From Rhizobiales bacterium 62-17 (GTDB lineage: Bacteria > Pseudomonadota > Alphaproteobacteria > Rhizobiales > Beijerinckiaceae), in contig MKVW01000009.1 of the NCBI GenBank assembly GCA_001898965.1, positions 718,853-782,852 of the forward strand: a stretch of DNA of 64,000 nt. The letters are read 5' to 3'. Numbering within the stretch: position 1 is the first letter of the stretch; every line of letters starts with the position of its first letter. The notes under the pieces were generated by a model. That model searched no databases. It worked only from the letters and a program-made list of their open reading frames with translations, and was not told where the DNA came from. Positions 24,202-35,898 of the stretch are shown one piece after another. Made by a program: the position numbers and the translations under genes.

Positions 24202-24274
24202 GCGGTTTTCATCCGGGGAGACTGCGACCGGATGAACGCATCTAGCAGCAGCGGTGCCGCAGAAAGTCTATTCG

Positions 24275-25201
24275 ATGTCGATTCGGTTCGATGAAATTGG
24301 CGAAAGACTGAAGGCCTATCGTCTTGGCCGTGGCCTGTCCGCCGAGGAAGTCGCTGAAAGCCTCGATATTTCGCGTGCCGCCGTCTATCGCATCGAGAGC
24401 GGTGGCGTCGTCAAGATCGAGACGCTCGAACGTCTGGCGGCGATTCTCAAAACCAGCGTGGCGTCGCTGCTCGGCGCGACGGTCGAATATTATTCAAGCC
24501 CGCTCGCCTATTTCGAGCGCATGCGGCAGATCGAGGAACAGGCCGATCAGGTGGTGGCGCATTTCCCGCCGCTCTCTTATCTGCTGACCTCGGAGGCCTA
24601 TCCCAGCCATCTGAAACAGACGCTGGTCGAATCCCTGCCGCCTTATGTCGAAGATCATCGCAAGGCCGAGGCGGAGATCGAAGCCGTCATCGAAATCCTG
24701 AACGAACGCAAACAGGCGCGAAAGCGCCGTGGCCTCAGCGTCGTCAATTTCGTCAACGTGCTCGAGATCGAGCGCTGGTTGAAGCTCGGTGTGGTCGGCC
24801 GTTTCAATATTTCCGAAACGGAGTTGACCCGGCGCCGGCTGGCCGCGCGCACCGAGATCGAACATCTGATCGCGCTCATCGAAAGTCAGCCGATGGGCGT
24901 ACAGATTGGCGTGATCGAGGAAAACCTGCCCAACACGACGTTTCAATTGTTCCGGACGAAGGAAAAGACGTCGCTGGGGCTCAGCCCGTTCCGCCTGGGC
25001 GGCGATCTGCCCAATATTCGCGGCGGCATCGCCATGCTCACCTCCGATGCGGAGCCGGTGCGCCTCTATGAAGAGCTGGCCAACGATCTGTGGCGCCGGG
25101 CCTTGAAAGGCGGCGATGCCAGCGCGCTGCTGCGCACTGTCCTCAACCGCTCGGCGATCGCCAAGCCAGTGCCGAAAAAGTCATCCTCAAAGGTGGCCTG
25201 A
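24275..25201 (+). CDS. XRE-family helix-turn-helix regulator
   Basis: 308 residues from ATG 24275 (MSIRFDEIGERLKAYR). The XRE helix-turn-helix covers residues 8-62 (RGLSAEEVAESLDISRAAVY, RIESGGVVKIETLERLA). The remaining 240 residues form an effector region with no motif I recognise; a cupin or M78 peptidase domain is not evident. Its 3' end overlaps the convergent LOG-like gene by 15 bases. It sits beside pyrE and opposite the pyrimidine operon, so it is the best local candidate to control those genes. That link is inference. Confidence 0.8.
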   Translation: MSIRFDEIGERLKAYRLGRGLSAEEVAESLDISRAAVYRIESGGVVKIETLERLAAILKTSVASLLGATVEYYSSPLAYFERMRQIEEQADQVVAHFPPLSYLLTSEAYPSHLKQTLVESLPPYVEDHRKAEAEIEAVIEILNERKQARKRRGLSVVNFVNVLEIERWLKLGVVGRFNISETELTRRRLAARTEIEHLIALIESQPMGVQIGVIEENLPNTTFQLFRTKEKTSLGLSPFRLGGDLPNIRGGIAMLTSDAEPVRLYEELANDLWRRALKGGDASALLRTVLNRSAIAKPVPKKSSSKVA

Positions 25202-25848: not shown

Positions 25849-26541
25849 TTAAAACTCGGAGATACCGCCATGCGCGGCGGACCATTGCGCCGGTGCGTTG
25901 AGGAAGCTTTCGACTTCGGCGAGGACCTTCGGTTCGAAATGGCCGCTATCCTTGGCGACTTTGAGAACGTCCCACCACGTCGTCAAATAGTGGAGATTGA
26001 CGTTGAGTTCTTCCATCAGCTCGCGGCTTTTCGGGAAGATGTCGTAGTAGAACAGCACGAAGCAATGGTCGACCTTGGCGCCGGCTTCCCGCAGCGCCTG
26101 GCAGAAGTTCACCTTGCTGCGGCCATCGGTGGCGAGATCTTCGACCAGCAGCGTGCGGGCGCCTTCCACGACTTCGCCTTCGATCTGCGCGTTGCGGCCA
26201 AAGCCCTTGGCCTTCTTGCGCACATACTGCATGGGCAGCAGCAGGCGGTCGGAAATCCAGGCCGCGAAGGGAATGCCGGCCGTTTCGCCGCCGGCGATAT
26301 TGTCGATGGATTCATAGCCGATGTCGCGCACGATCGTGGAGGCGGCGAAATCCATCAGCGCCGAGCGCAGGCGCGGATAGGAAATGATCTTCCGGCAGTC
26401 GATATAGACGGGGCTAGCCCAGCCGGACGTAAAAAAAAACGGCTTTTCCTGATAGAAATGAACCGCTTTGATTTCGAGCAACATTTTTGCGGCTTCATGC
26501 GCGATGACGGATTTATCGATCGGCGCAAACAGATTCGACAT
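25849..26541 (-). CDS. pyrE: Orotate phosphoribosyltransferase (first copy)
   Basis: 230 residues. OPRT joins orotate and PRPP to OMP. The PRPP-binding loop is [14 protein letters not shown] near residue 130. Other typical segments are [20 protein letters not shown] near 38, [18 protein letters not shown] near 83 and [17 protein letters not shown] near 106. It is probably the housekeeping copy because it stands outside the pyrimidine operon. A second OPRT at 32364 shares the same core. It is divergent from that operon across a 390-base regulatory gap and precedes a LOG-like gene. Confidence 0.92.
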
Positions 26542-26931
26542 CAGCGAACACTCCAGGCTGAAGGCCGCCGGTTGGGGGACCGACGCATTGAGAGGTACAT
26601 TCAGAGGATCTCCCCTGCTTCTTGCGCCCTATCCGGGGCGCGTCAATAGGCGACTCTGGAAGCAAACAACATAAAATCGCTCAAAAATTGAGCAATAGTG
26701 TCATTTTTTAGACAGCAGTATCTTTTTTGATATTTGCCCTTGTCAGTGAGATGGGGCTGTGAAATCATCGATCCTTCGTTTTTGTCAGCCGCCGGGCTTA
26801 AATCGGCTTATTCAAAAGGGCGACTAAACATCGGGCCGCCGGCCCGAGCGACGAAGCAGTTCTGGACCTGGCCGGCTTGCCGAGCTTTCAGCTCGTCCCG
26901 CCGGCGGGCTTGGCAAACGGGGGAATAGGCT
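26542..26931. other. Intergenic control region between pyrE and the pyrimidine operon
   Basis: No gene was found in these 390 bases. An AT-rich core at 26665-26740 holds the perfect inverted repeat GCTCAA-AAA-TTGAGC (26679-26693) and a TATC-T6-GATA repeat near 26720. A GC-rich stretch with a GAGCTTTCAGCTC hairpin lies near 26887, just before the GTG start at 26932. It must contain both divergent promoters and probably an operator. Confidence 0.55.
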
Positions 26932-28182
26932 GTGAGTGAAAATCAAGCTGCAACGGCGGAGTCTTTCTCCGCACCATCCGAGGTCGACAGCAAGGCGCGC
27001 AAGGCGCTGTGGGGCGCGGCCATCGGCTACGCCATGGACGGCTTCGACCTGCTGATCTTGGGCTTCATGCTCAGAGCCATCTCCGCCGATCTGCAATTGA
27101 GCCAGGCCCAGGCGGCTTCGCTGGTCACGGCCACCTTGGTCGGCGCGGTGGTCGGCGGTTTGGTCTTCGGCATGCTGTCCGATCGCATCGGCCGCGTCCG
27201 CGTTCTCACCTGGACCATCGTTCTGTTCGCCGTCTTCACCGGCCTTTGCGCTCTGGCGCAGGGTTACTGGGATCTCCTGATCTACCGCACGATCGCCGGC
27301 CTCGGTCTGGGTGGCGAGTTCGGCATCGGCATGGCGCTTGTCGCCGAAGCCTGGCCGGCCTCCAAGCGCGCCCGCGCTTCTTCCTATGTCGGCCTCGGCT
27401 GGCAGTTGGGCGTGCTCGCGGCGGCTTTGGTGAGCCCGTTGCTACTGCCCCATATCGGCTGGCGCGGCATGTTCGCTGTCGGCATCTTCCCGGCGCTGGT
27501 GGCCTATTTCATCCGCTACTCGCTGCACGAACCGGAAATCTTCGTCGCCAAGGTCAAGGAAAAGTCCCAGTCGGCTAAGCAGTCGGCGCTCGGGCTCCTG
27601 GTCAAGGATTGGGAAACGACCAAGCTCAGCATCGGCATGGTCATTCTCTGTTCGGTACAGAACTTCGGATACTACGGCGTGATGATCTGGCTGCCGAACT
27701 ATCTCGCCTCGCGCTTCGGCTTCGCTCTCACGCAATCTGCGATGTGGACCGCGGTCACGATCGCCGGCATGGCGCTCGGCATCTTCGCCTTCGGCCATAT
27801 CGCCGATCGCATCGGCCGCCGCCCGGCTTTCTTCGCTTATATGCTGGGTGCCGCGATCATGGTCGTCGTCTATTCGCGGCTGACCGATCCGACGCAGCTC
27901 TTGATCGTCGGCGCCATCATGGGCTTCTTCGTCAACGGCATGCTCGGCGGTTACGGCGCCTTGATCAGCGAGCTTTTCCCGACGGCGGCGCGCGCCACGG
28001 CGCAGAACGTCCTGTTCAACATCGGGCGCGGTGTCGGTGGCTTCGGGCCGGTCGTCATCGGTGCGATTGCAGGGCTCTACAACTTCGAGACGGCCATCGC
28101 CCTGCTCGCGGTTCTCTATGTCATCGACATTCTGGCCATGTGGTTCCTGATCCCGGAACGGCGTGGCGCGGAATTGGAATGA
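26932..28182 (+). CDS. MFS transporter of the AAHS type, candidate orotate importer
   Basis: 416 residues from GTG 26932, preceded by GGGGGAATAGG. Twelve membrane helices. The first helix carries GYAMDGFDLLILGFML, with the Asp-Gly-Phe-Asp motif of aromatic acid/H+ symporters, and the loop motif GMLSDRIGRVRV follows helix 2. The family imports organic acids by proton symport. It opens an operon of dihydroorotate, dihydroorotase and orotate enzymes, so orotate, dihydroorotate or carbamoylaspartate is a reasonable cargo. That cargo is inferred from neighbours alone. The next gene starts 9 bases downstream. Confidence 0.85.
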   Translation: MSENQAATAESFSAPSEVDSKARKALWGAAIGYAMDGFDLLILGFMLRAISADLQLSQAQAASLVTATLVGAVVGGLVFGMLSDRIGRVRVLTWTIVLFAVFTGLCALAQGYWDLLIYRTIAGLGLGGEFGIGMALVAEAWPASKRARASSYVGLGWQLGVLAAALVSPLLLPHIGWRGMFAVGIFPALVAYFIRYSLHEPEIFVAKVKEKSQSAKQSALGLLVKDWETTKLSIGMVILCSVQNFGYYGVMIWLPNYLASRFGFALTQSAMWTAVTIAGMALGIFAFGHIADRIGRRPAFFAYMLGAAIMVVVYSRLTDPTQLLIVGAIMGFFVNGMLGGYGALISELFPTAARATAQNVLFNIGRGVGGFGPVVIGAIAGLYNFETAIALLAVLYVIDILAMWFLIPERRGAELE

Positions 28183-28191
28183 AGTGGCGTC

Positions 28192-29040
28192 ATGAACCAC
28201 ATGCATCCTCATCACTTCGGTTCACAGACTGAGGCATCCCCGCACCATCCCGTGGTGGCGGAACTGACGGATGTCCTCAAGAACGAGCCGGTGAATGAGG
28301 AGTATTACCACCTCGTCGTCCGCTGCAGCCCAGAAGCTGCAGCGGCGCAGGCTGGGCAGTTCTTCCAGCTCCTGTGTCCGCATTCCGGCGAGGCGCAGCC
28401 GTTCCTGCGCCGTCCCATGAGTGTTTACGGGATGAATCCGCAAACGCGGGAGCTGGAATTCCTCTACAAGGTCACGGGCGCGGGCACACGCGGTCTGGCC
28501 ACCTTGCGGCCCGGCGATCAGCTCGATGTTTTCGGTCCGCTGGGCACGGGCTTTACCTTCGATCCATCGTGGCGCTCGATCGTCGCCGTCGGACGCGGCG
28601 CCGGCCTCGCCACTTTGGCGCCCTTGGCGAGATCGGCCAAGGAACGCGGCATTCACGTCACCGCTATTCTGAGCGCGCGGCGGCCGGATCTCCTGGTCTC
28701 GGTCGACCTCTTCCGCAGTTTTGGCGCCGACGTCGTCACCGTCACCGATTCCCGCCAGACCAGCGGTCCCGCCAATGTCGAGCGTATTCTGCGCTCGCTG
28801 ATCGCCGAGAACCGCTGCGACGCCTTCTTCACATGCGGCTCCAGCCGGCTGATGCGCGTGCAGCAGCGTCTCGCCCATGAATTCGATCTGCCGGGCCAGG
28901 TGGCGATGGAACAGCAAATGGCTTGCGGCATTGGCCTTTGTTATTGCTGCGTGCGCGATTTCAACGTCGACGGCGAAATCGTCAGCCGCCGCGTCTGCTG
29001 GGACGGCCCCGTCTTCGATCTCAAGGAGGCGTTGCCGTGA
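28192..29040 (+). CDS. pyrK: Dihydroorotate dehydrogenase electron-transfer subunit (PyrK-like)
   Basis: 282 residues. The FAD-binding segment contains FLRRPMSVYGMN near residue 65 and GTRGLATLRPGDQLDVFGPLG. The NAD-binding site is VGRGAGLATLAPLA near 132. A C-terminal [2Fe-2S] motif, CGIGLCYCC (Cys-x4-Cys-x2-Cys) then RRVCWDGPVF, has all four cysteines. PyrK passes electrons between NAD(H) and the FMN of class 1B PyrD. Most proteobacteria instead use a quinone-linked class 2 enzyme with no PyrK, so the pair is unusual here. It overlaps pyrD by 4 bases. Confidence 0.86.
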   Translation: MNHMHPHHFGSQTEASPHHPVVAELTDVLKNEPVNEEYYHLVVRCSPEAAAAQAGQFFQLLCPHSGEAQPFLRRPMSVYGMNPQTRELEFLYKVTGAGTRGLATLRPGDQLDVFGPLGTGFTFDPSWRSIVAVGRGAGLATLAPLARSAKERGIHVTAILSARRPDLLVSVDLFRSFGADVVTVTDSRQTSGPANVERILRSLIAENRCDAFFTCGSSRLMRVQQRLAHEFDLPGQVAMEQQMACGIGLCYCCVRDFNVDGEIVSRRVCWDGPVFDLKEALP

Positions 29041-30002
29041 ACGCCGTCGAGAGCAAGGTCGATCTCTCCGTCAAGATCGGCGGCCTGACCCTGCGCAATC
29101 CTATTATGCCGGCCTCGGGCACCTTCGCCGAAGGTTTGGAGAAGGTGCTGGATTTCGATCGGCTCGGCGCCTGCGTCACCAAGACGATCACCCGCGAATT
29201 GCGCACCGGCAATCCGCTGCCGCGCGTCGTCGAGCGCCCCGGCAGCCTCATCAACGCGATCGGCATTCCCTCCAAGGGCGTCGCTTATTTCCTTGAGAAG
29301 ACCATGCCGCATTATGCCGGCTACAGCACGCCGCTGGTCGTCTCCATTTCGGCGCCGACGGCCGAGGGTTTTGCCAGCCTCGCTGCCGAACTGACCATCC
29401 CCGGCATCACTGCCATCGAAGCCAATATCTCCTGTCCGAATATCGAGGAGGACGGCAAGGCCTTCGCCATGCGCGCCGAGTCGACCGAAAAGGTCACGCG
29501 CGAGCTGCGCAAGGCAACCAACCTGCCGCTGTGGGTCAAGCTCACCCCCAACACCGGCGAAATGCCGGACGTGGCGCGCGCGGCGGAAGCCTCAGGTGCC
29601 GATGCGGTGGTGGTCGCCAATACGATCTTGTCCATGGCGATCGATCTGAAGACCTTTCGCCCCTGCCTCGGCAATGTGATGGGTGGCCTGTCGGGTCCGG
29701 CGGTGAAGCCGATCATCCTGCGGCAGGTGTTTCAATGCGCCAAGGCCGTCGACATTCCGGTGATCGGCTGCGGCGGCATTTCCAATTGCGATGATGCGGT
29801 TGAATATCTGATCGCCGGCGCCAGCGCCGTGCAGGTGGGAACGGCGACCTTCCTGCAACCCAAGACGATGACGACGATCATCGATGATCTCGAACGTTTC
29901 TGCGCCCATCGCGATATCGGCCGCGTCAGCGATCTCATTGGCGGTGTCGTGATCGAGGAAGCTGACGAACCCGACCTCGCTTGGCTGGATCCGATCTCGT
30001 GA
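29037..30002 (+). CDS. pyrD: Class 1B dihydroorotate dehydrogenase catalytic subunit
   Basis: 321 residues from GTG 29037, overlapping the pyrK stop. The class 1 catalytic Cys lies in IEANISCPNIEEDG near residue 133; class 2 enzymes have Ser there. Typical FMN-barrel segments are NPIMPASGTFAEG, LWVKLTPNTGEM and VIGCGGISNCDDAVEYL. Lacking the membrane-binding N-terminal helices of class 2, it should be soluble and NAD-linked through the PyrK-like partner. Such enzymes work in either direction; with the amidohydrolase and transporter in the operon, orotate reduction is plausible. Confidence 0.92.
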   Translation: MNAVESKVDLSVKIGGLTLRNPIMPASGTFAEGLEKVLDFDRLGACVTKTITRELRTGNPLPRVVERPGSLINAIGIPSKGVAYFLEKTMPHYAGYSTPLVVSISAPTAEGFASLAAELTIPGITAIEANISCPNIEEDGKAFAMRAESTEKVTRELRKATNLPLWVKLTPNTGEMPDVARAAEASGADAVVVANTILSMAIDLKTFRPCLGNVMGGLSGPAVKPIILRQVFQCAKAVDIPVIGCGGISNCDDAVEYLIAGASAVQVGTATFLQPKTMTTIIDDLERFCAHRDIGRVSDLIGGVVIEEADEPDLAWLDPIS

Positions 30003-31285
30003 CCGCGCAGATTGCCCCCTCGGCCTATGTGGAAGACACGGCCGATCGCGATTTCGCCGCCGCCATTTTTGACGCGCTGCGGGCGCTGACCAGCGATGGC
30101 GAGGGCATCACGCGGCTCGCTTACAGCGAGCTGGAATCTGCGGCGCTCGATCTCGTCGAGGCGGAAGCGCGCCAATTGGGTTTCGCCACCGAGCGCGATG
30201 CTGGCGCCAATCTGATCATCACGCTTGAAGGGGGCGATCCGAGCCTGCCGTTCCTCGCCTGCGGTTCCCATCTCGATTCGGTGCCGCAGGGCGGCAATTT
30301 CGATGGCGCCGCCGGCGTCATCGCGGGTCTCACGGTTCTGGCGCATTTCAAGCGCGAGGGGTTTCGGCCGCAGCGCACGATCAAGATCTATGCGCTGCGC
30401 GGCGAGGAAAGCGCCCGGTTTGGGCGCGCCTATATGGGCTCGAGCGCGCTGTTTGGAAAACTCTCCGCCGCCGATCTCGCCTCCGTCGATGCCAATGGTG
30501 AAACCCTGGCGCAAGCCATGGCCTCGGTCGGCATCGCCATGGCGCCGATCGAAAAGGGCGAACGGCTGCTCGATCCCGCTCAGGTCTTTGCCTGGCTGGA
30601 GCTGCATATCGAACAGGGGCCAGTGCTGGTCGCCCGCAAGCTGCCGGTTGGCATCGTCACTGGCATTCGCGGCAATATCCGCCACGCCAAGGTCGAATGC
30701 CTGGGCGAGGCCGGCCATTCCGGCGCGGTGCCGCGCTGGCTGCGGCGCGACGCTCTGTTTGCGGTCGCCGAACTGATCACCCATCTGGATCGTCACTGGC
30801 GCACCATGCTGGAGCGCGGCCGCGATCTGGTCATCACCTGTGGCGTCATCGGCACCGATCCCAAGACCCATGCCCTCGCCCGTATTCCGGAGAAGGTGCA
30901 GTTTTCTTTCGAGGTTCGCAGCCAGAGCCAGGAGACGCTGGAGGCGTTCTACGACCTGTTCCTGTCGGAATGCGCCTTGATCAGCGAGGAGCGCGACGTC
31001 GAATTCAAGCTCGATCGGCGCATCGATTCCGCCCCCGCCGTCCTCGACCAGGGCTGGATCAAGCGGCTCGAAAAGGCGGCCGGCGACCTGGAGCTGCCAT
31101 GTGAAGATATTCCCAGCGGCGCTGGGCATGATGCCGCCGTCTTTGCTAATGTCGGAATCCCCGCCGCCATGCTGTTCGTGCGTAACGAGCATGGTTCGCA
31201 CAATCCGAAGGAAGCGATGACGATCGATGACTTTATTGCCGGTGTCAGCGTTCTCCGCACAGCGATCAAGGACGCGCTAGAATGA
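29999..31285 (+). CDS. M20 amidohydrolase of the carbamoylase/allantoate hydrolase family, candidate ureidosuccinase
   Basis: 428 residues from GTG 29999, overlapping pyrD by 4 bases. Two-metal ligand motifs are intact: GSHLDSVPQGGNFDGAAG near residue 88, LRGEESARFGRAYMGS near 131, LHIEQGP near 203, and the C-terminal EHGSHNP near 399. GEAGHSGAVP marks the dimerisation-domain junction. The family removes carbamoyl groups from N-carbamoyl amino acids, ureidopropionate or allantoate. Sitting between dihydroorotate dehydrogenase and dihydroorotase, its most likely substrate is N-carbamoyl-L-aspartate, giving aspartate, ammonia and CO2. De novo pyrimidine synthesis has no need of this enzyme. The substrate is inferred. 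Confidence 0.8.
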   Translation: MTAQIAPSAYVEDTADRDFAAAIFDALRALTSDGEGITRLAYSELESAALDLVEAEARQLGFATERDAGANLIITLEGGDPSLPFLACGSHLDSVPQGGNFDGAAGVIAGLTVLAHFKREGFRPQRTIKIYALRGEESARFGRAYMGSSALFGKLSAADLASVDANGETLAQAMASVGIAMAPIEKGERLLDPAQVFAWLELHIEQGPVLVARKLPVGIVTGIRGNIRHAKVECLGEAGHSGAVPRWLRRDALFAVAELITHLDRHWRTMLERGRDLVITCGVIGTDPKTHALARIPEKVQFSFEVRSQSQETLEAFYDLFLSECALISEERDVEFKLDRRIDSAPAVLDQGWIKRLEKAAGDLELPCEDIPSGAGHDAAVFANVGIPAAMLFVRNEHGSHNPKEAMTIDDFIAGVSVLRTAIKDALE

Positions 31286-32367
31286 GCATTTCCGAGCTCT
31301 TTCCCGATCCGCCGGCCAGCACCGTGCCGTCGATCACCATCAAAAGACCGGACGACTGGCATATCCATCTGCGTGACGGCGACGTGTTGAAGGCCGTCAT
31401 CCCGTTCACGACGTCGCAATTCGCCCGTGGCATCATCATGCCCAATCTGGTGCCGCCGGTGACGACGGTGGAAAGCGCGCAGGCCTATCGCGAGCGCATT
31501 CTCAAGGCCCGACCGGAGGGCAGCGATTTCACGCCGCTGATGACCTGCTATCTCACCGAGGCGACCACGGCCGATGAGATCGAGCGCGGGTTCAAGGAGA
31601 ACGTCTGGGCGGCCGCCAAACTCTACCCGGCCGGTGCGACGACGAATTCGCACGCGGGTGTGCGCGACATTCAGGTGCTGGCGCCGGTGTTCGAGCGCAT
31701 GGAAAAGATCGGCATGCCGGTCTTGATCCACGGCGAAGTCACCGATTGGAGCGTCGATATTTTCGATCGTGAAGCGGTCTTCATGGAACAGAAGCTGCTG
31801 CCGCTGCTCAAGCGCCATCAGGGTCTCAAAGTCGTGGTCGAACATGTCACCACCGCCGAGACGGTGGAGATCGTGCGCGCCCACGCGGGCCGGGTCGCCG
31901 GCACGATCACGCCGCATCATCTGATCTTGAACCGCTCGTCGCTGTTCAACGGCGGCCTGCAGCCGCATTTCTATTGCCTGCCCGTCGCCAAACACGAGCG
32001 CCATCGTCTTGCCTTGCGCCAGGCGGCAACCTCGGGCGACGGCAATTTCTTTATCGGCACGGATTCGGCGCCGCATCTGCGCAGCGCCAAACAGGCCGAA
32101 TGCTGCGCCGCCGGCATTTTCTGCGGTGCCACCGCGTTGCAGACTTATGTCCAGGTCTTTGACGAGGAAGGCGCACTGCCGCATTTCGAAGCCTTTGCCT
32201 CGCTCAACGGTCCGCGCTTCTACGGTCTGCCGGTCAATACCGGCACGATCACCTTGGAGCGGCGGCCGGATCGCCAGATGGCGGCCATAGAGGTGGCCGG
32301 CGAAGACATCGTCATGTTCCGGGGTGGTGAGCAATTGCCTTGGTCGTTGGGCGAGACGCGCAGATGA
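31282..32367 (+). CDS. pyrC: Dihydroorotase
   Basis: 361 residues, E. coli-type (class II) dihydroorotase. Metal and carbamylated-Lys residues are in place: DWHIHLRDGD near residue 28, KLYPAGATTNSHAG near 113, LIHGEVTDW near 150, VVEHVTT near 188, and the catalytic Asp in FIGTDSAPH near 260. The enzyme interconverts N-carbamoyl-L-aspartate and dihydroorotate. It is coupled by 4-base overlaps to the amidohydrolase before and the OPRT after. All catalytic residues are present, so it should be active in either direction. Confidence 0.93.
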   Translation: MSISELFPDPPASTVPSITIKRPDDWHIHLRDGDVLKAVIPFTTSQFARGIIMPNLVPPVTTVESAQAYRERILKARPEGSDFTPLMTCYLTEATTADEIERGFKENVWAAAKLYPAGATTNSHAGVRDIQVLAPVFERMEKIGMPVLIHGEVTDWSVDIFDREAVFMEQKLLPLLKRHQGLKVVVEHVTTAETVEIVRAHAGRVAGTITPHHLILNRSSLFNGGLQPHFYCLPVAKHERHRLALRQAATSGDGNFFIGTDSAPHLRSAKQAECCAAGIFCGATALQTYVQVFDEEGALPHFEAFASLNGPRFYGLPVNTGTITLERRPDRQMAAIEVAGEDIVMFRGGEQLPWSLGETRR

Positions 32368-33038
32368 CGTCAATCGCGGCCAAGGAGCGGGGACAAAAGA
32401 TCGCCGAGATCATGTTCAAGGCTGGCGCCATTCACGTCAGCCGACAACAGCCCTATATCTTGGCCGCCGGCTGGGCGAGCCCGGTCTATGTCGACATCCG
32501 TCTGTTGATCGGCGAGCCGGAGTTGCGCCAGCAAGCCGTCGCCCTGGCCACCGACTGGATGAAGGAAGCTTTGCAGACCAGCGCCTTCGATGCGCTGGTC
32601 GGCGCCGAGACGGCGGGCATTCCTTTCGCCGCCTGGATTGCCGAACGCACCGGCCTTAAATTTCGCTACATTCGCAAACGCCCGCTCGGCATCGGCCGCA
32701 ATGCTCAGGTGGAGGGCGGTGCGATTGATGGGCTCAACGCTCTCCTGGTCGACGATCTCACCACCGATGGGCGCAGCAAATTGAATTTCGTGCGTGGCCT
32801 GCGCGCTGCCGGTGCCCATGTCGAACATATTCTGACGATCTTTTATCACGATGCCTTTCCCGATGCCGGCGTCCGGCTGGGGCAGGCGGGATTGACCCTT
32901 CACGCCTTGGCCACCTGGTCCGACGTTTTGGCGGCGCAGGATGATGGACAGCTCTCGACGCAGGATCGCCAGGAGATCGAGCGCTTTCTCAGCGATCCGG
33001 TGGCGTGGTCGGCCCGCCACGGTGGCCGATCGGCTTGA
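32364..33038 (+). CDS. pyrE: Orotate phosphoribosyltransferase (second copy)
   Basis: 224 residues from ATG 32364, which overlaps the pyrC stop. The PRPP loop is ALLVDDLTTDGRSKLNF near residue 130; AAGWASPVYVDIRLLIGEPE and [19 protein letters not shown] match the first copy at 25849. It is clearly a diverged paralogue, not a recent duplicate. As the last gene of the operon it could convert part of the imported or formed orotate to OMP for UMP synthesis. A dedicated second copy supports a salvage or catabolic operon separate from the housekeeping gene. Confidence 0.9.
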   Translation: MTSIAAKERGQKIAEIMFKAGAIHVSRQQPYILAAGWASPVYVDIRLLIGEPELRQQAVALATDWMKEALQTSAFDALVGAETAGIPFAAWIAERTGLKFRYIRKRPLGIGRNAQVEGGAIDGLNALLVDDLTTDGRSKLNFVRGLRAAGAHVEHILTIFYHDAFPDAGVRLGQAGLTLHALATWSDVLAAQDDGQLSTQDRQEIERFLSDPVAWSARHGGRSA

Positions 33039-33117
33039 CTGACAGCACAACGGATGAAGGAGCGATGGCTATCAAGGCCGCATTCACTATTCGATTCATT
33101 GATGAATGGAGAAGCAC

Positions 33118-33429
33118 ATGCGTGAACTTCTGGAATGGCTGAAATCGCAGAAAGGTGGCGTGTCCACCTATTGGGAATTTCAACTGCGCGCGTTGAAGCT
33201 GCGCGCCACGGAGCCTGAACAGGCCGCCTGCCTCAGCCTGCTCGCCGATATCGCCGGCCGCTTCGCCGACAAATATTACGAAGAACCATTGCCGGTCGAT
33301 GCGGCGGCGGGCGCGTTGGATCGCCTGGGCAAGCTGCTCGGCAAGGCAGTCGAGAATATCGAGGCCGATGCCGCGACGCGCCTGCGCGTGCTCAACGAAA
33401 TCAGCGTTTCCGAACTCGAACCGGGCTGA
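33118..33429 (+). CDS. Small helical protein of unknown function
   Basis: 103 residues. ATG 33118 is preferred over in-frame ATG 33106 because GGAG at 33108-33111 is well placed as its ribosome-binding site. The product is mostly predicted helix, charged, without signal peptide or membrane segment (MRELLEWLKSQKGG at the start, KYYEEPLPVDAAAGALDRLG in the middle). I do not recognise the family. It lies 79 bases after the second pyrE and before the molybdopterin oxidoreductase, and could belong to either unit. Confidence 0.6.
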   Translation: MRELLEWLKSQKGGVSTYWEFQLRALKLRATEPEQAACLSLLADIAGRFADKYYEEPLPVDAAAGALDRLGKLLGKAVENIEADAATRLRVLNEISVSELEPG

Positions 33430-33487: not shown

Positions 33488-33513
33488 ATTATGTCTCATA
33501 ATTGAGACATAAT
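33488..33513. promoter_or_regulatory. Perfect palindrome upstream of the molybdopterin oxidoreductase
   Basis: ATTATGTCTCA (33488-33498) and TGAGACATAAT (33503-33513) are perfect 11-base complements around TAAT. AT-rich in a GC-rich setting and placed just before the gene, it is almost certainly a protein-binding site. The regulator is unknown. Its CTCA...TGAG core resembles the repeat at 26679-26693. Confidence 0.65.
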
Positions 33514-33552
33514 CGGGCGATGCCCGCTCCACGCGTCAAGGGAATGCTGCCG

Positions 33553-35898
33553 ATGCAAACGCGAACGCCGATCTTTTGCGCTTTGTGTCGGTCACGATGC
33601 GGCTCCACGGCCGTGGTGGAAGACGGTCGCCTCATCGCGCAGGAGCCCAATCCCGATCATCCGACAGGCAAGGCGCTTTGCATCAAGGGCCGCGCCGCGC
33701 CGGAGATCGTTCACAACGCGCAGCGCCTGCTGCGCCCGCTCATCCGCACATCGCCAAAGACGCAAGCGCCGCAATGGCGCGAGGCAAGCTGGGACGAAGC
33801 GCTCGATCTGATCGCGCGCCGCATCGGCGCAACGCGCGATCGTCATGGCGCCGAGGCAGTGGCCTTCGGCGTCACCTCGCCTTCGGGATCGCCGGTGTCC
33901 GACGGCATCAAATGGATCGAACGTCTGGTCCATGCCTTCGGCAGTCCGAATCTCTTGCGAGGTACAGAGATCTGCAACTGGCACAAGGATTTCTCGCACG
34001 CCTATACGTTCGGCCACGGCATAGCGACGCCGGAATTCTCCAACAGCCGTGCCATCGTTCTGTGGGGCCATAATCCAGGTGCCACCTGGCTCGATCATGC
34101 GACCAGCGTCGCCGAAGCCAATGCGCGCGGTGCCGCTCTCGTCGTCATCGATCCCCGCCAGGCGGGCTTTGCAGGGCGCGCGCGCGAATGGCTGCAGGTC
34201 AAACCCGGCTCCGACGGCGCTCTGGCCCTCGGCCTTGCCGGCGCGATGATCGAAAACGGTTGGTTTGACGATCGCTTCGTGCGTGACTGGACCAACGGGC
34301 CGCTGTTGGTGCGTGACGATACGAAACGTTTCCTGCGCGCCGGCGACATTGGACTTGCGCCAGAGGCATATCTTGTCGCTTGGGATAGCAAGAACCATGC
34401 TCCGCTTCTGTTCGATCCGACAAGCGGCGTTTACAAAGCGCCGCAGCATGAGCGCGCTTTACGCGCCGACGTAAGCTTGGAGATCGCGGGCCAGACCGTG
34501 CGCTGCCAAACGGCTTTTTCGCTTTATGCGGACGTCTGTGCGCAATTGGGCCCGGAAGAACTCGAAAGCGAAACCGGCATCCCACATGAGCAGATCGTGC
34601 GCACGGCCCGGCTGATCTACGAGAATCTTCCGGTCAGCTACTATTGTTGGTCCGGCATCAGCCAGCACGCCAATGCCACGCAGACCGATCGCGCCATCGC
34701 CATGCTCTTCGCCTTGACCGGCAGCGTCGATGCGCCCGGCGGCAATGTGCAGCTCACCCATCATGCCATCTTCGATGTCTCGGGTTCTGAACTGATGAGC
34801 GCCGAGCAGCGGCGCAAATGCATTGAATTCGACCGCCGTCCGCTCGGCCCCGCGTCGCGCGGCTGGATCGGCTCGGACTCGCTTTATCGCGCCATCCTCG
34901 AAGAAGATCCTTATCCGATCAAGGCCGTCCTCTGCTTCGGCGCCAATGTCATTCTATCCCATGCCGATCCGTTGCGCGCGCGGCAAGCCCTGCAAAAGCT
35001 CGATTTCTTCGTCCACGCCGATGTGGTGATGACGCCGACGGCGGCTTTCGCCGATGTCGTTTTGCCAGTGAATACGCCTTGGGAGCGCGAAGCCTTGCGC
35101 ACCGGCTTCGAAGTCAACCAAGCAGCGGAAGAATTGATCCAGCTCCGCCACAAGGTCGTCGCATCAGCCGGTGAAAGCCGCTCGGATGCCTGGATCGTGT
35201 TCGAACTGGCGAAACGTCTTGGCCTCGCCGATCGGTTCTGGGGCGGCGATCTCGAAGCGGGCCTTGCCGCGATCGTCGCGCCGCTCGGCCTCAACCTCGA
35301 TGATCTCAGGGCATCGCCCGGCGGTCTGCGCCAGCCGCTGACCATGCGCTACAGGAAATATGCGGAAGGCGGTGCGACGCCCAAAGGCTTCAAGACGCCG
35401 ACGCGCAAGGTCGAACTCTATTCCGAAACCTTCCTCGATCACGGTTACGCGCCGCTGCCTGTCTACACACCACAGCCGCAGCTCAAACGTCAGCCGTGTT
35501 ATCCGCTGGTGCTGACCTCGGCGAAACTGGCGCAGTATTGTCACAGCCAACACCGGCATGTGCCTTCATTGCGTCGTCGCATGCGCGAACCGCTGATCGA
35601 AATGCATCCGTCGACGGCCAGCGCCCGTGGCATTGCCGATGGCGATCTCGTCCGCGTCAAAACCCGCGCTGGCGAAATCCAGATGCGCGCCAAGCTCGAA
35701 ACCCGCCTGAAGCCGGATGTCGTCGTTGGCCAATATGGCTGGTGGCAATCCAACAGCGAGTTGAACATTGCCGGCTATTCGCCCTTCGACGGCGACGGGT
35801 CCAACTACAACCTGCTGATCGACGAGCACGATCTTGATGCCATCGCCGGCTCGGCGCCGCATCGTGCTTTCCGGTGCGAGATCGAGTTGATGGCTTGA
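33553..35898 (+). CDS. Molybdopterin (bis-MGD) oxidoreductase, DMSO reductase superfamily
   Basis: 781 residues from ATG 33553, favoured because AAGGGA lies 9 bases before it and the family N-terminus follows; ATG 33520 and 33544 are alternatives. An N-terminal [4Fe-4S] site has Cys-x2-Cys-x3-Cys in FCALCRSRCGS and a fourth Cys in ALCIKG. Molybdopterin segments include GTEICNWHKDFSHAY, LWGHNPGATWLDH and the C-terminal NSELNIAGYSPFDGDGSNYN. There is no Tat signal, so it should be cytoplasmic. No electron-transfer subunit or chaperone is adjacent. It is not an obvious formate dehydrogenase or nitrate reductase, and the substrate is unknown. Confidence 0.85.
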   Translation: MQTRTPIFCALCRSRCGSTAVVEDGRLIAQEPNPDHPTGKALCIKGRAAPEIVHNAQRLLRPLIRTSPKTQAPQWREASWDEALDLIARRIGATRDRHGAEAVAFGVTSPSGSPVSDGIKWIERLVHAFGSPNLLRGTEICNWHKDFSHAYTFGHGIATPEFSNSRAIVLWGHNPGATWLDHATSVAEANARGAALVVIDPRQAGFAGRAREWLQVKPGSDGALALGLAGAMIENGWFDDRFVRDWTNGPLLVRDDTKRFLRAGDIGLAPEAYLVAWDSKNHAPLLFDPTSGVYKAPQHERALRADVSLEIAGQTVRCQTAFSLYADVCAQLGPEELESETGIPHEQIVRTARLIYENLPVSYYCWSGISQHANATQTDRAIAMLFALTGSVDAPGGNVQLTHHAIFDVSGSELMSAEQRRKCIEFDRRPLGPASRGWIGSDSLYRAILEEDPYPIKAVLCFGANVILSHADPLRARQALQKLDFFVHADVVMTPTAAFADVVLPVNTPWEREALRTGFEVNQAAEELIQLRHKVVASAGESRSDAWIVFELAKRLGLADRFWGGDLEAGLAAIVAPLGLNLDDLRASPGGLRQPLTMRYRKYAEGGATPKGFKTPTRKVELYSETFLDHGYAPLPVYTPQPQLKRQPCYPLVLTSAKLAQYCHSQHRHVPSLRRRMREPLIEMHPSTASARGIADGDLVRVKTRAGEIQMRAKLETRLKPDVVVGQYGWWQSNSELNIAGYSPFDGDGSNYNLLIDEHDLDAIAGSAPHRAFRCEIELMA

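Follow-up and report, generated by a model that had tools for sequence, protein, structure and literature searches.

A 64,000-nucleotide stretch of the Rhizobiales bacterium 62-17 genome (contig MKVW01000009.1, positions 718,853 to 782,852; hereafter the window) carries a six-gene operon on the plus strand, at 26932-33038, which we consider likely to serve the use of orotate. It would provide for orotate import, for reductive breakdown to aspartate and for conversion of a part to orotidine 5'-monophosphate (OMP), with a dihydroorotase that is probably shared with pyrimidine synthesis. The genes encode, in order, a major facilitator superfamily (MFS) transporter, the PyrK and PyrD subunits of a class 1B dihydroorotate dehydrogenase, an M20 carbamoylase, a dihydroorotase and an orotate phosphoribosyltransferase (OPRT). 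We propose that the MFS protein imports orotate, which PyrK/PyrD would reduce with NADH to dihydroorotate. The dihydroorotase would then open the ring to yield N-carbamoyl-L-aspartate, and the M20 enzyme, whose substrate we infer, would hydrolyse this compound to aspartate, CO2 and ammonia. OPRT would divert part of the orotate to OMP, an XRE-type protein encoded upstream would control the operon, and a single dihydroorotase would work in both synthesis and breakdown.

The catabolic reading draws on the gene content and the four gene overlaps of the operon, on separate class 2 PyrD and PyrB genes in the same genome, on the clade to which the M20 protein belongs, on orotate-type TRAP (tripartite ATP-independent periplasmic) transporters in related loci and on plasmid copies of the gene set. 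An earlier note on this DNA had recognized an orotate-degrading gene set, a view strengthened by the separate class 2 PyrD and by the recurrence of the set at other loci, where an orotate-type TRAP transporter frequently accompanies it.

Operon layout and the class 1B dehydrogenase

All six genes were found with the content, place and strand that the earlier note had given them, and the 4-base overlaps it had described among the last five can be read from the sequence at all four junctions: GTGA between PyrK and PyrD (29037-29040) and between PyrD and M20 (29999-30002), and ATGA between M20 and the dihydroorotase (31282-31285) and between the latter and OPRT (32364-32367). The MFS gene stops at 28182 and PyrK starts at 28192, leaving a 9-base gap. 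The GC content of the operon is 0.633, compared to 0.619 for the window. The operon contains no pyrB, carA, carB or pyrF.

Reductive orotate breakdown was reportedly worked out as enzymology in Clostridium (Zymobacterium) oroticum, where an NAD-linked dihydroorotate dehydrogenase, a dihydroorotase and a ureidosuccinase are said to lead to aspartate. The step order is the same as that proposed here, and genes for the dehydrogenase, dihydroorotase and carbamoylase of this route all stand together in the window operon. In contrast to C. oroticum, ours is a gene cluster of Proteobacteria in a genome that also holds class 2 PyrD, with an M20 protein as candidate ureidosuccinase and with an importer, an OPRT and an XRE regulator in addition.

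PyrD scores above the cut-offs of NF005574 (336.1 versus 269) and TIGR01037 (295.7 versus 270), and its alignment to 1ep1 retains the NISCPN, NAIG and NT stretches, which we take to be functional. Of the NAD-linked class 1B PyrK and PyrD pair named in the earlier note, the PyrD family assignment thus holds fully, while PyrK matches PF10418 but stays below the equivalog cut-offs. Both subunits match the class 1B enzyme of Lactococcus lactis (1ep1/1ep3) in sequence. The L. lactis enzyme is said to be biosynthetic; the window enzyme differs in adjoining a carbamoylase and in belonging to a genome with a class 2 enzyme as well. Its sequence places it in class 1B, and we infer the orotate-to-dihydroorotate direction and the use of NADH.

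The M20 carbamoylase and its substrate

The earlier note's carbamoylase-type M20 hydrolase is borne out by a TIGR01879 score above cut-off and by fold matches to 3n5f, 4pxb and 1z2l. The AlphaFold model (predicted local distance difference test score, pLDDT, 91.5) has the L-N-carbamoylase 3n5f as its best match in the Protein Data Bank (PDB); L-N-carbamoylase and ureidoglycolate amidohydrolase are its best matches, and allantoate amidohydrolase is found among the first ten. The family assignment is therefore sound. Carbamoylaspartate is the simplest guess for the substrate, since the adjoining dihydroorotase can yield it, and this context makes the protein a candidate for EC 3.5.1.7. Although 3n5f and its kin provide the best fold match, they share only 34% identity with the window protein, and their HAGATPM stretch reads HSGAVPR in the latter. 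We considered Arg246 of this stretch as a mark of carbamoylaspartate binding and dropped it, because many M20 proteins outside the orotate clade share the Arg.

The ErtD/ErtE pair of ergothioneine breakdown (NF058538, NF058540) likewise combines a cyclic amidohydrolase with an M20 carbamoylase to give an acidic amino acid. These proteins are named for hydantoin-5-propionate and N-carbamyl-glutamate, however, and the window M20 scores 310.7 against the ErtE cut-off of 520. An ErtD/ErtE pair above cut-off is encoded elsewhere in the same genome (G000:C6, L008 1423-4073) and probably performs a step of ergothioneine breakdown.

Could the operon instead break down another pyrimidine or ureido acid, such as uracil, thymine or hydantoins, PyrK/PyrD then taking the role of PreT/PreA? 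M20 carbamoylases as a family are versatile, a general subfamily gives the window protein its best NCBIfam match, and a uridine-phosphorylase-like gene occurs in three PyrD-linked loci (the L046 copy below its curated cut-off). Nevertheless, PyrD fits dihydroorotate dehydrogenase families and reaches only 141 of 335 bits with the PreA model, a TIGR00856 dihydroorotase stands in place of a dihydropyrimidinase, and related loci carry kin of an orotate-bound TRAP protein. We regard this explanation as very unlikely.

One dihydroorotase, probably for two pathways

Class 2 PyrD, PyrB and a canonical PyrE, the last adjoining the operon, are present in the same genome and separate from the operon. 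The genome holds two OPRT genes, so that the operon copy is indeed a second OPRT, as the earlier note had said; the other is the neighboring minus-strand pyrE. The dihydroorotases are distributed differently. A TIGR00856 search of the genome returned the operon gene as its sole match. With TIGR00857, the gene next to PyrB scores above cut-off (331.9 versus 279), two other amidohydrolases, ErtD and the unassigned L007 protein (266.7 versus 279), remain below it, and some weak matches follow. The PyrB neighbor resembles PRK09059 (622.7 versus a cut-off of 645) and has DMCAFIGEPG in place of the DTQVHFREPG of two PRK09060 proteins, a stretch we take to be metal-binding. Because the residues of this stretch are lost (CAF for QVH), we regard the protein as probably inactive. 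L007, which has HSH at this point and keeps a metal-binding-type stretch, may be a second dihydroorotase. The PRK09060 model itself is not reached in this genome (best score 279.5 versus 482).

With no other intact-looking dihydroorotase in the genome, the operon enzyme probably serves synthesis and breakdown alike, and we rejected a purely catabolic operon for the same reason. This is where the earlier note, which had set the operon apart from synthesis, has to be revised. It had also asked for separate class 2 pyrD and pyrB/pyrC genes and counted the lack of another pyrD and pyrC, if joined by pyrimidine auxotrophy of operon mutants, against itself: pyrD and pyrB are present, and a second intact-looking pyrC was not found. 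A further gene of the same genome (C1, L003 260-2286) encodes a dihydroorotate-dehydrogenase-like protein (PRK07565-like, below cut-off); it adjoins a gene for a protein without NCBIfam match and an open reading frame (ORF) that by eye resembles a transporter.

A sample of 150 genomes of the order, including that of the window, extends this picture. The pyrC_dimer type of dihydroorotase, to which the operon enzyme belongs, occurs in 26 of them and PRK09060 in 110, yet only one (G024, with 6% contamination) has both, where 19 would be expected. The pattern suggests that one dihydroorotase has replaced the other, and this near mutual exclusion is a second reason to think that the operon gene is probably also biosynthetic here. 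At E <= 1e-60, 13 of the 150 have class 1B PyrD, which exceeds the family cut-off in 11, and in none of these 13 was PRK09060 found at E <= 1e-120. In ten of the 13 the cluster includes M20 (G000, G020, G040, G080, G115, G122, G133, G145, G146 and G149), and all ten have class 2 PyrD. Among the three without M20, class 2 is present in G027 and missing from G064 and G100; these two have a PyrD under the TIGR01037 cut-off. The association of class 2 PyrD with M20 gives a Fisher p of 0.04, on small numbers. Where a carbamoylase lies nearby, the class 1B enzyme is always additional to class 2.

These data bear directly on a second explanation, namely a pyrimidine synthesis operon whose class 1B PyrD makes orotate at low oxygen, with biosynthetic dihydroorotase and OPRT and an incidental M20. 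It would account for the location of the only intact-looking dihydroorotase, for six genomes (G020, G040, G080, G115, G133 and G145) in which the OPRT near M20 is the sole NF001729 match at E <= 1e-30, and for G064 and G100 with their class 1B-type PyrD. On the other hand, class 2 PyrD accompanies clustered M20 in 10 of 10 genomes and occurs in all 24 further genomes described below, the cluster holds an orotate-type importer and a carbamoylase, the window operon is devoid of pyrB, carA, carB and pyrF, and copies of the set are carried on plasmids. We therefore judge a synthesis operon to be very unlikely.

The M20 clade and related loci

A scan with nine M20 queries gave 578 loci, the best 80 of which were used. 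A quick tree of 91 rows was built from these 80, the window, nine loci of the order (L041-L049) and ErtE. The orotate-linked group of 39 was defined by its neighbors (OPRT or PyrD nearby) and the tree was made afterwards; L041-L049 had been picked by class 1B PyrD and thus cannot count for the linkage of M20 to PyrD. All 39 M20 proteins of this group fall into a single clade (SH-aLRT support 98), which requires a single change compared to a mean of 29.6 for shuffled labels. By record title, and within the best 80 of 578 loci, its members are alpha-, beta- and gammaproteobacteria. The earlier note's alphaproteobacterial version of the pathway was accordingly too narrow, as the cluster is found in these other classes and on plasmids.

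PyrK and PyrD lie within 7.5 kb of M20 in 26 of the 39 clade loci; among the 29 found by M20 similarity (L061-L087, L107, L128), PyrD is nearby in 16. The 26 PyrD-linked loci (window included in these and the following counts) carry within the same distance a dihydroorotase in 15 cases, an OPRT in 19, an XRE homologue in 21 and a small conserved ORF in 17. In several loci without PyrD the sequence stops near M20 (e.g. L072, L076, L077 and L078), and genes may be cut off there. Seven loci combine a closely spaced OPRT and M20 without PyrK/PyrD (L064, L067, L073, L079, L080, L081 and L086); the L064 genome carries class 1B PyrD elsewhere, and none was found in the other six genomes. In 24 further genomes reached via M20 loci, class 2 PyrD was found in all and class 1B in 16; two of the 24 (L088, L089) have M20 proteins that fall narrowly outside the clade, and L062 is not among the 24.

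The window M20 groups with sequences of Roseomonas, Pseudoroseomonas and another Acetobacteraceae member (support 98), and both class 1B PyrD and pyrC_dimer are absent from the four other sampled members of the window's own family. Together, these observations suggest that the operon arrived horizontally.

Transporters

Among the 26 PyrD-linked loci, 14 have a TRAP system within 7.5 kb of M20, 7 have an MFS protein and 5 have neither. The TRAP binding protein of L041, the only one searched against solved structures (and the reference to which the other 13 were matched), gives 450 bits with 4nn3 and 172 with the next chain. This close relative, 4NN3, is a TRAP binding protein of Desulfovibrio salexigens, and a passage in PMC11668362 describes the structure as holding orotic acid. 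The window operon instead has the MFS protein, which is nearest to TIGR00895 yet under the cut-off (334.1 versus 418.6). Six other PyrD-linked loci (L063, L068, L070, L074, L075 and L087) carry relatives with 60-74% identity upstream of PyrK. We call it an orotate importer because it stands upstream of PyrK in seven loci, counting the window, where others have TRAP; its position thus points to orotate as substrate.

Plasmid-borne copies

A protein search (E <= 1e-80) identified relatives in 78 plasmid records. A stretch shared by Klebsiella plasmids encodes MFS, PyrK, PyrD, M20, dihydroorotase, XRE and small ORF homologues without OPRT, and 53 of the 55 matched Klebsiella records hold it whole at 99% or more; no near match to it was found in an E. 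coli collection. Klebsiella makes its own pyrimidines, and the simplest reading of the plasmid set is therefore an added catabolic function. The PyrD copies carry the annotation 'pyrimidine biosynthesis', as does the PyrC of the Klebsiella plasmid; one of the 53 records (H62) names no dihydroorotate dehydrogenase. Milk is named as the source in 9 of the 53, and a passage in PMC10608620 counts orotic acid among the components of mammalian milk. The link between milk and these plasmids is suggestive only. On an Agrobacterium plasmid (L143 5846-6703), PyrK-PyrD-M20 adjoin an annotated pyrF (OMP decarboxylase), which acts in the salvage of orotate to uridine monophosphate (UMP).

Regulator, repeats and flanking genes

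The XRE-type protein probably controls the operon; in several of the related loci, its homologue is divergent from the operon. The earlier note had mentioned neither its gene nor the small ORF that follows the operon. The motif TCTCA-N4-TGAGA occurs 18 times in the 39 orotate-linked sequences (738 kb) compared to 7 occurrences in the 102 other sequences (1.13 Mb); by our reading, 5 of these 7 are second copies of stretches in the orotate-linked set. Within 7.5 kb of M20, it is present in 14 of the 26 PyrD-linked loci and missing from 12, as it is from all 13 clade loci that lack PyrD nearby. The fit in the window, ATTATGTCTCA-TAAT-TGAGACATAAT, follows the small ORF and lies just before a molybdopterin oxidoreductase ORF (33520-35898), which on the strength of this fit may belong to the same regulon; no relative of the oxidoreductase was found in the relatives' loci searched. 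We do not claim the GCTCAAAAATTGAGC repeat as an operator, as it has one window match (at up to 2 mismatches) versus 3.3 expected by chance and a different spacing. The small ORF has a relative on the Klebsiella plasmid and gave no NCBIfam or Pfam match and no PDB match at E <= 0.001.

Table 1. Features of the operon and its surroundings (window positions; scores in bits, followed by the cut-off where given)
Feature	Position	Strand	Remarks
XRE-type regulator, probable operon regulator	24254..25201	+	Helix-turn-helix; 1.7 kb upstream, behind two minus-strand genes
Canonical PyrE (OPRT), neighbor and not member of the operon	25849..26541	-	NF001729 393.9
Inverted repeat GCTCAAAAATTGAGC, weak operator candidate upstream of operon	26679..26693		Spacing one base longer than in the relatives' motif
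MFS transporter, proposed orotate importer	26932..28182	+	Closest to aromatic acid/H+ symport family
PyrK-like FAD/[2Fe-2S] electron-transfer subunit, class 1B	28192..29040	+	PF10418 above cut-off; phmmer matches 4ylf, 5ksw, 1ep3
PyrD, class 1B catalytic subunit	29037..30002	+	NF005574 and TIGR01037 above cut-off
M20 N-carbamoyl amidohydrolase, candidate N-carbamoyl-L-aspartate hydrolase (ureidosuccinase)	29999..31285	+	TIGR01879 311.4 vs 204
Dihydroorotase, pyrC_dimer type, only intact-looking one in genome	31282..32367	+	TIGR00856 415.3 vs 293
Second OPRT (orotate to OMP)	32364..33038	+	NF001729 245.5 vs 245, just above
Small conserved ORF	33106..33429	+	107 aa, five helices; model pLDDT 94.1
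Inverted repeat ATTATGTCTCA-TAAT-TGAGACATAAT	33488..33513		Two 11-base arms, 4-base spacer; fits TCTCA-N4-TGAGA

Discussion

Several observations weigh against an orotate-use operon. PyrK falls under all four NCBIfam PyrK equivalog cut-offs (best 134.6 versus 314), the window operon has no 4NN3-like DctP, its place being occupied by the MFS protein, and 5 of the 26 PyrD-linked loci show neither type of transporter. The only intact-looking dihydroorotase sits inside the operon, where a purely catabolic operon would predict otherwise. G027 combines PyrK/PyrD with class 2 PyrD and has no M20 beside PyrK/PyrD. Finally, 13 of the 39 clade loci have OPRT and no PyrK/PyrD nearby, and a search at E <= 1e-60 returned no class 1B PyrD from six of their genomes (G153, G158, G161, G162, G163 and G168), four of which are metagenome or single-cell assemblies and two the strains Oleispirillum naphthae and Comamonas testosteroni. 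If this absence is real, M20 in these six genomes is not fed from orotate via PyrK/PyrD; it may be supplied with carbamoylaspartate by some other route, or have a different role.

The same loci lend some weight to an orotate salvage module, in which import and OPRT lead to UMP, M20 clears unneeded carbamoylaspartate and breakdown for nitrogen is minor. OPRT is near M20 in the window and in these 13 loci, for which it was the selection criterion, and six of their genomes yielded no class 1B PyrD, as noted. PyrK/PyrD accompany M20 in two thirds of the clade (26 of 39, nine of them, L041-L049, chosen by PyrD), however, and an NAD-linked dehydrogenase is needless for salvage; moreover, the Klebsiella plasmid stretch has no OPRT. 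Salvage as the main role seems unlikely to us, and it is partly compatible with the orotate-use operon that we favor.

A wider reading, which we offer tentatively and hold at a little under an even chance, is that the orotate-linked M20 clade represents the ureidosuccinase gene, and that the operon moves among Proteobacteria as an orotate-breakdown module, its dihydroorotase having taken the place of the native PRK09060 enzyme, with one enzyme running both pathways here. The displacement draws on the near mutual exclusion of pyrC_dimer and PRK09060 in the 150 genomes. Searches of the open-licence literature listed no description of such an operon and no tie of the route to Proteobacteria genes, which is weak evidence of novelty as most subscription journals lie outside this coverage; ureidosuccinase terms returned no paper there.

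If these proposals are correct, they would provide a candidate gene for ureidosuccinase and would call into question the default 'pyrimidine biosynthesis' annotation of such PyrD and PyrC copies. Moreover, the operon would present a case of one dihydroorotase serving opposite pathways.

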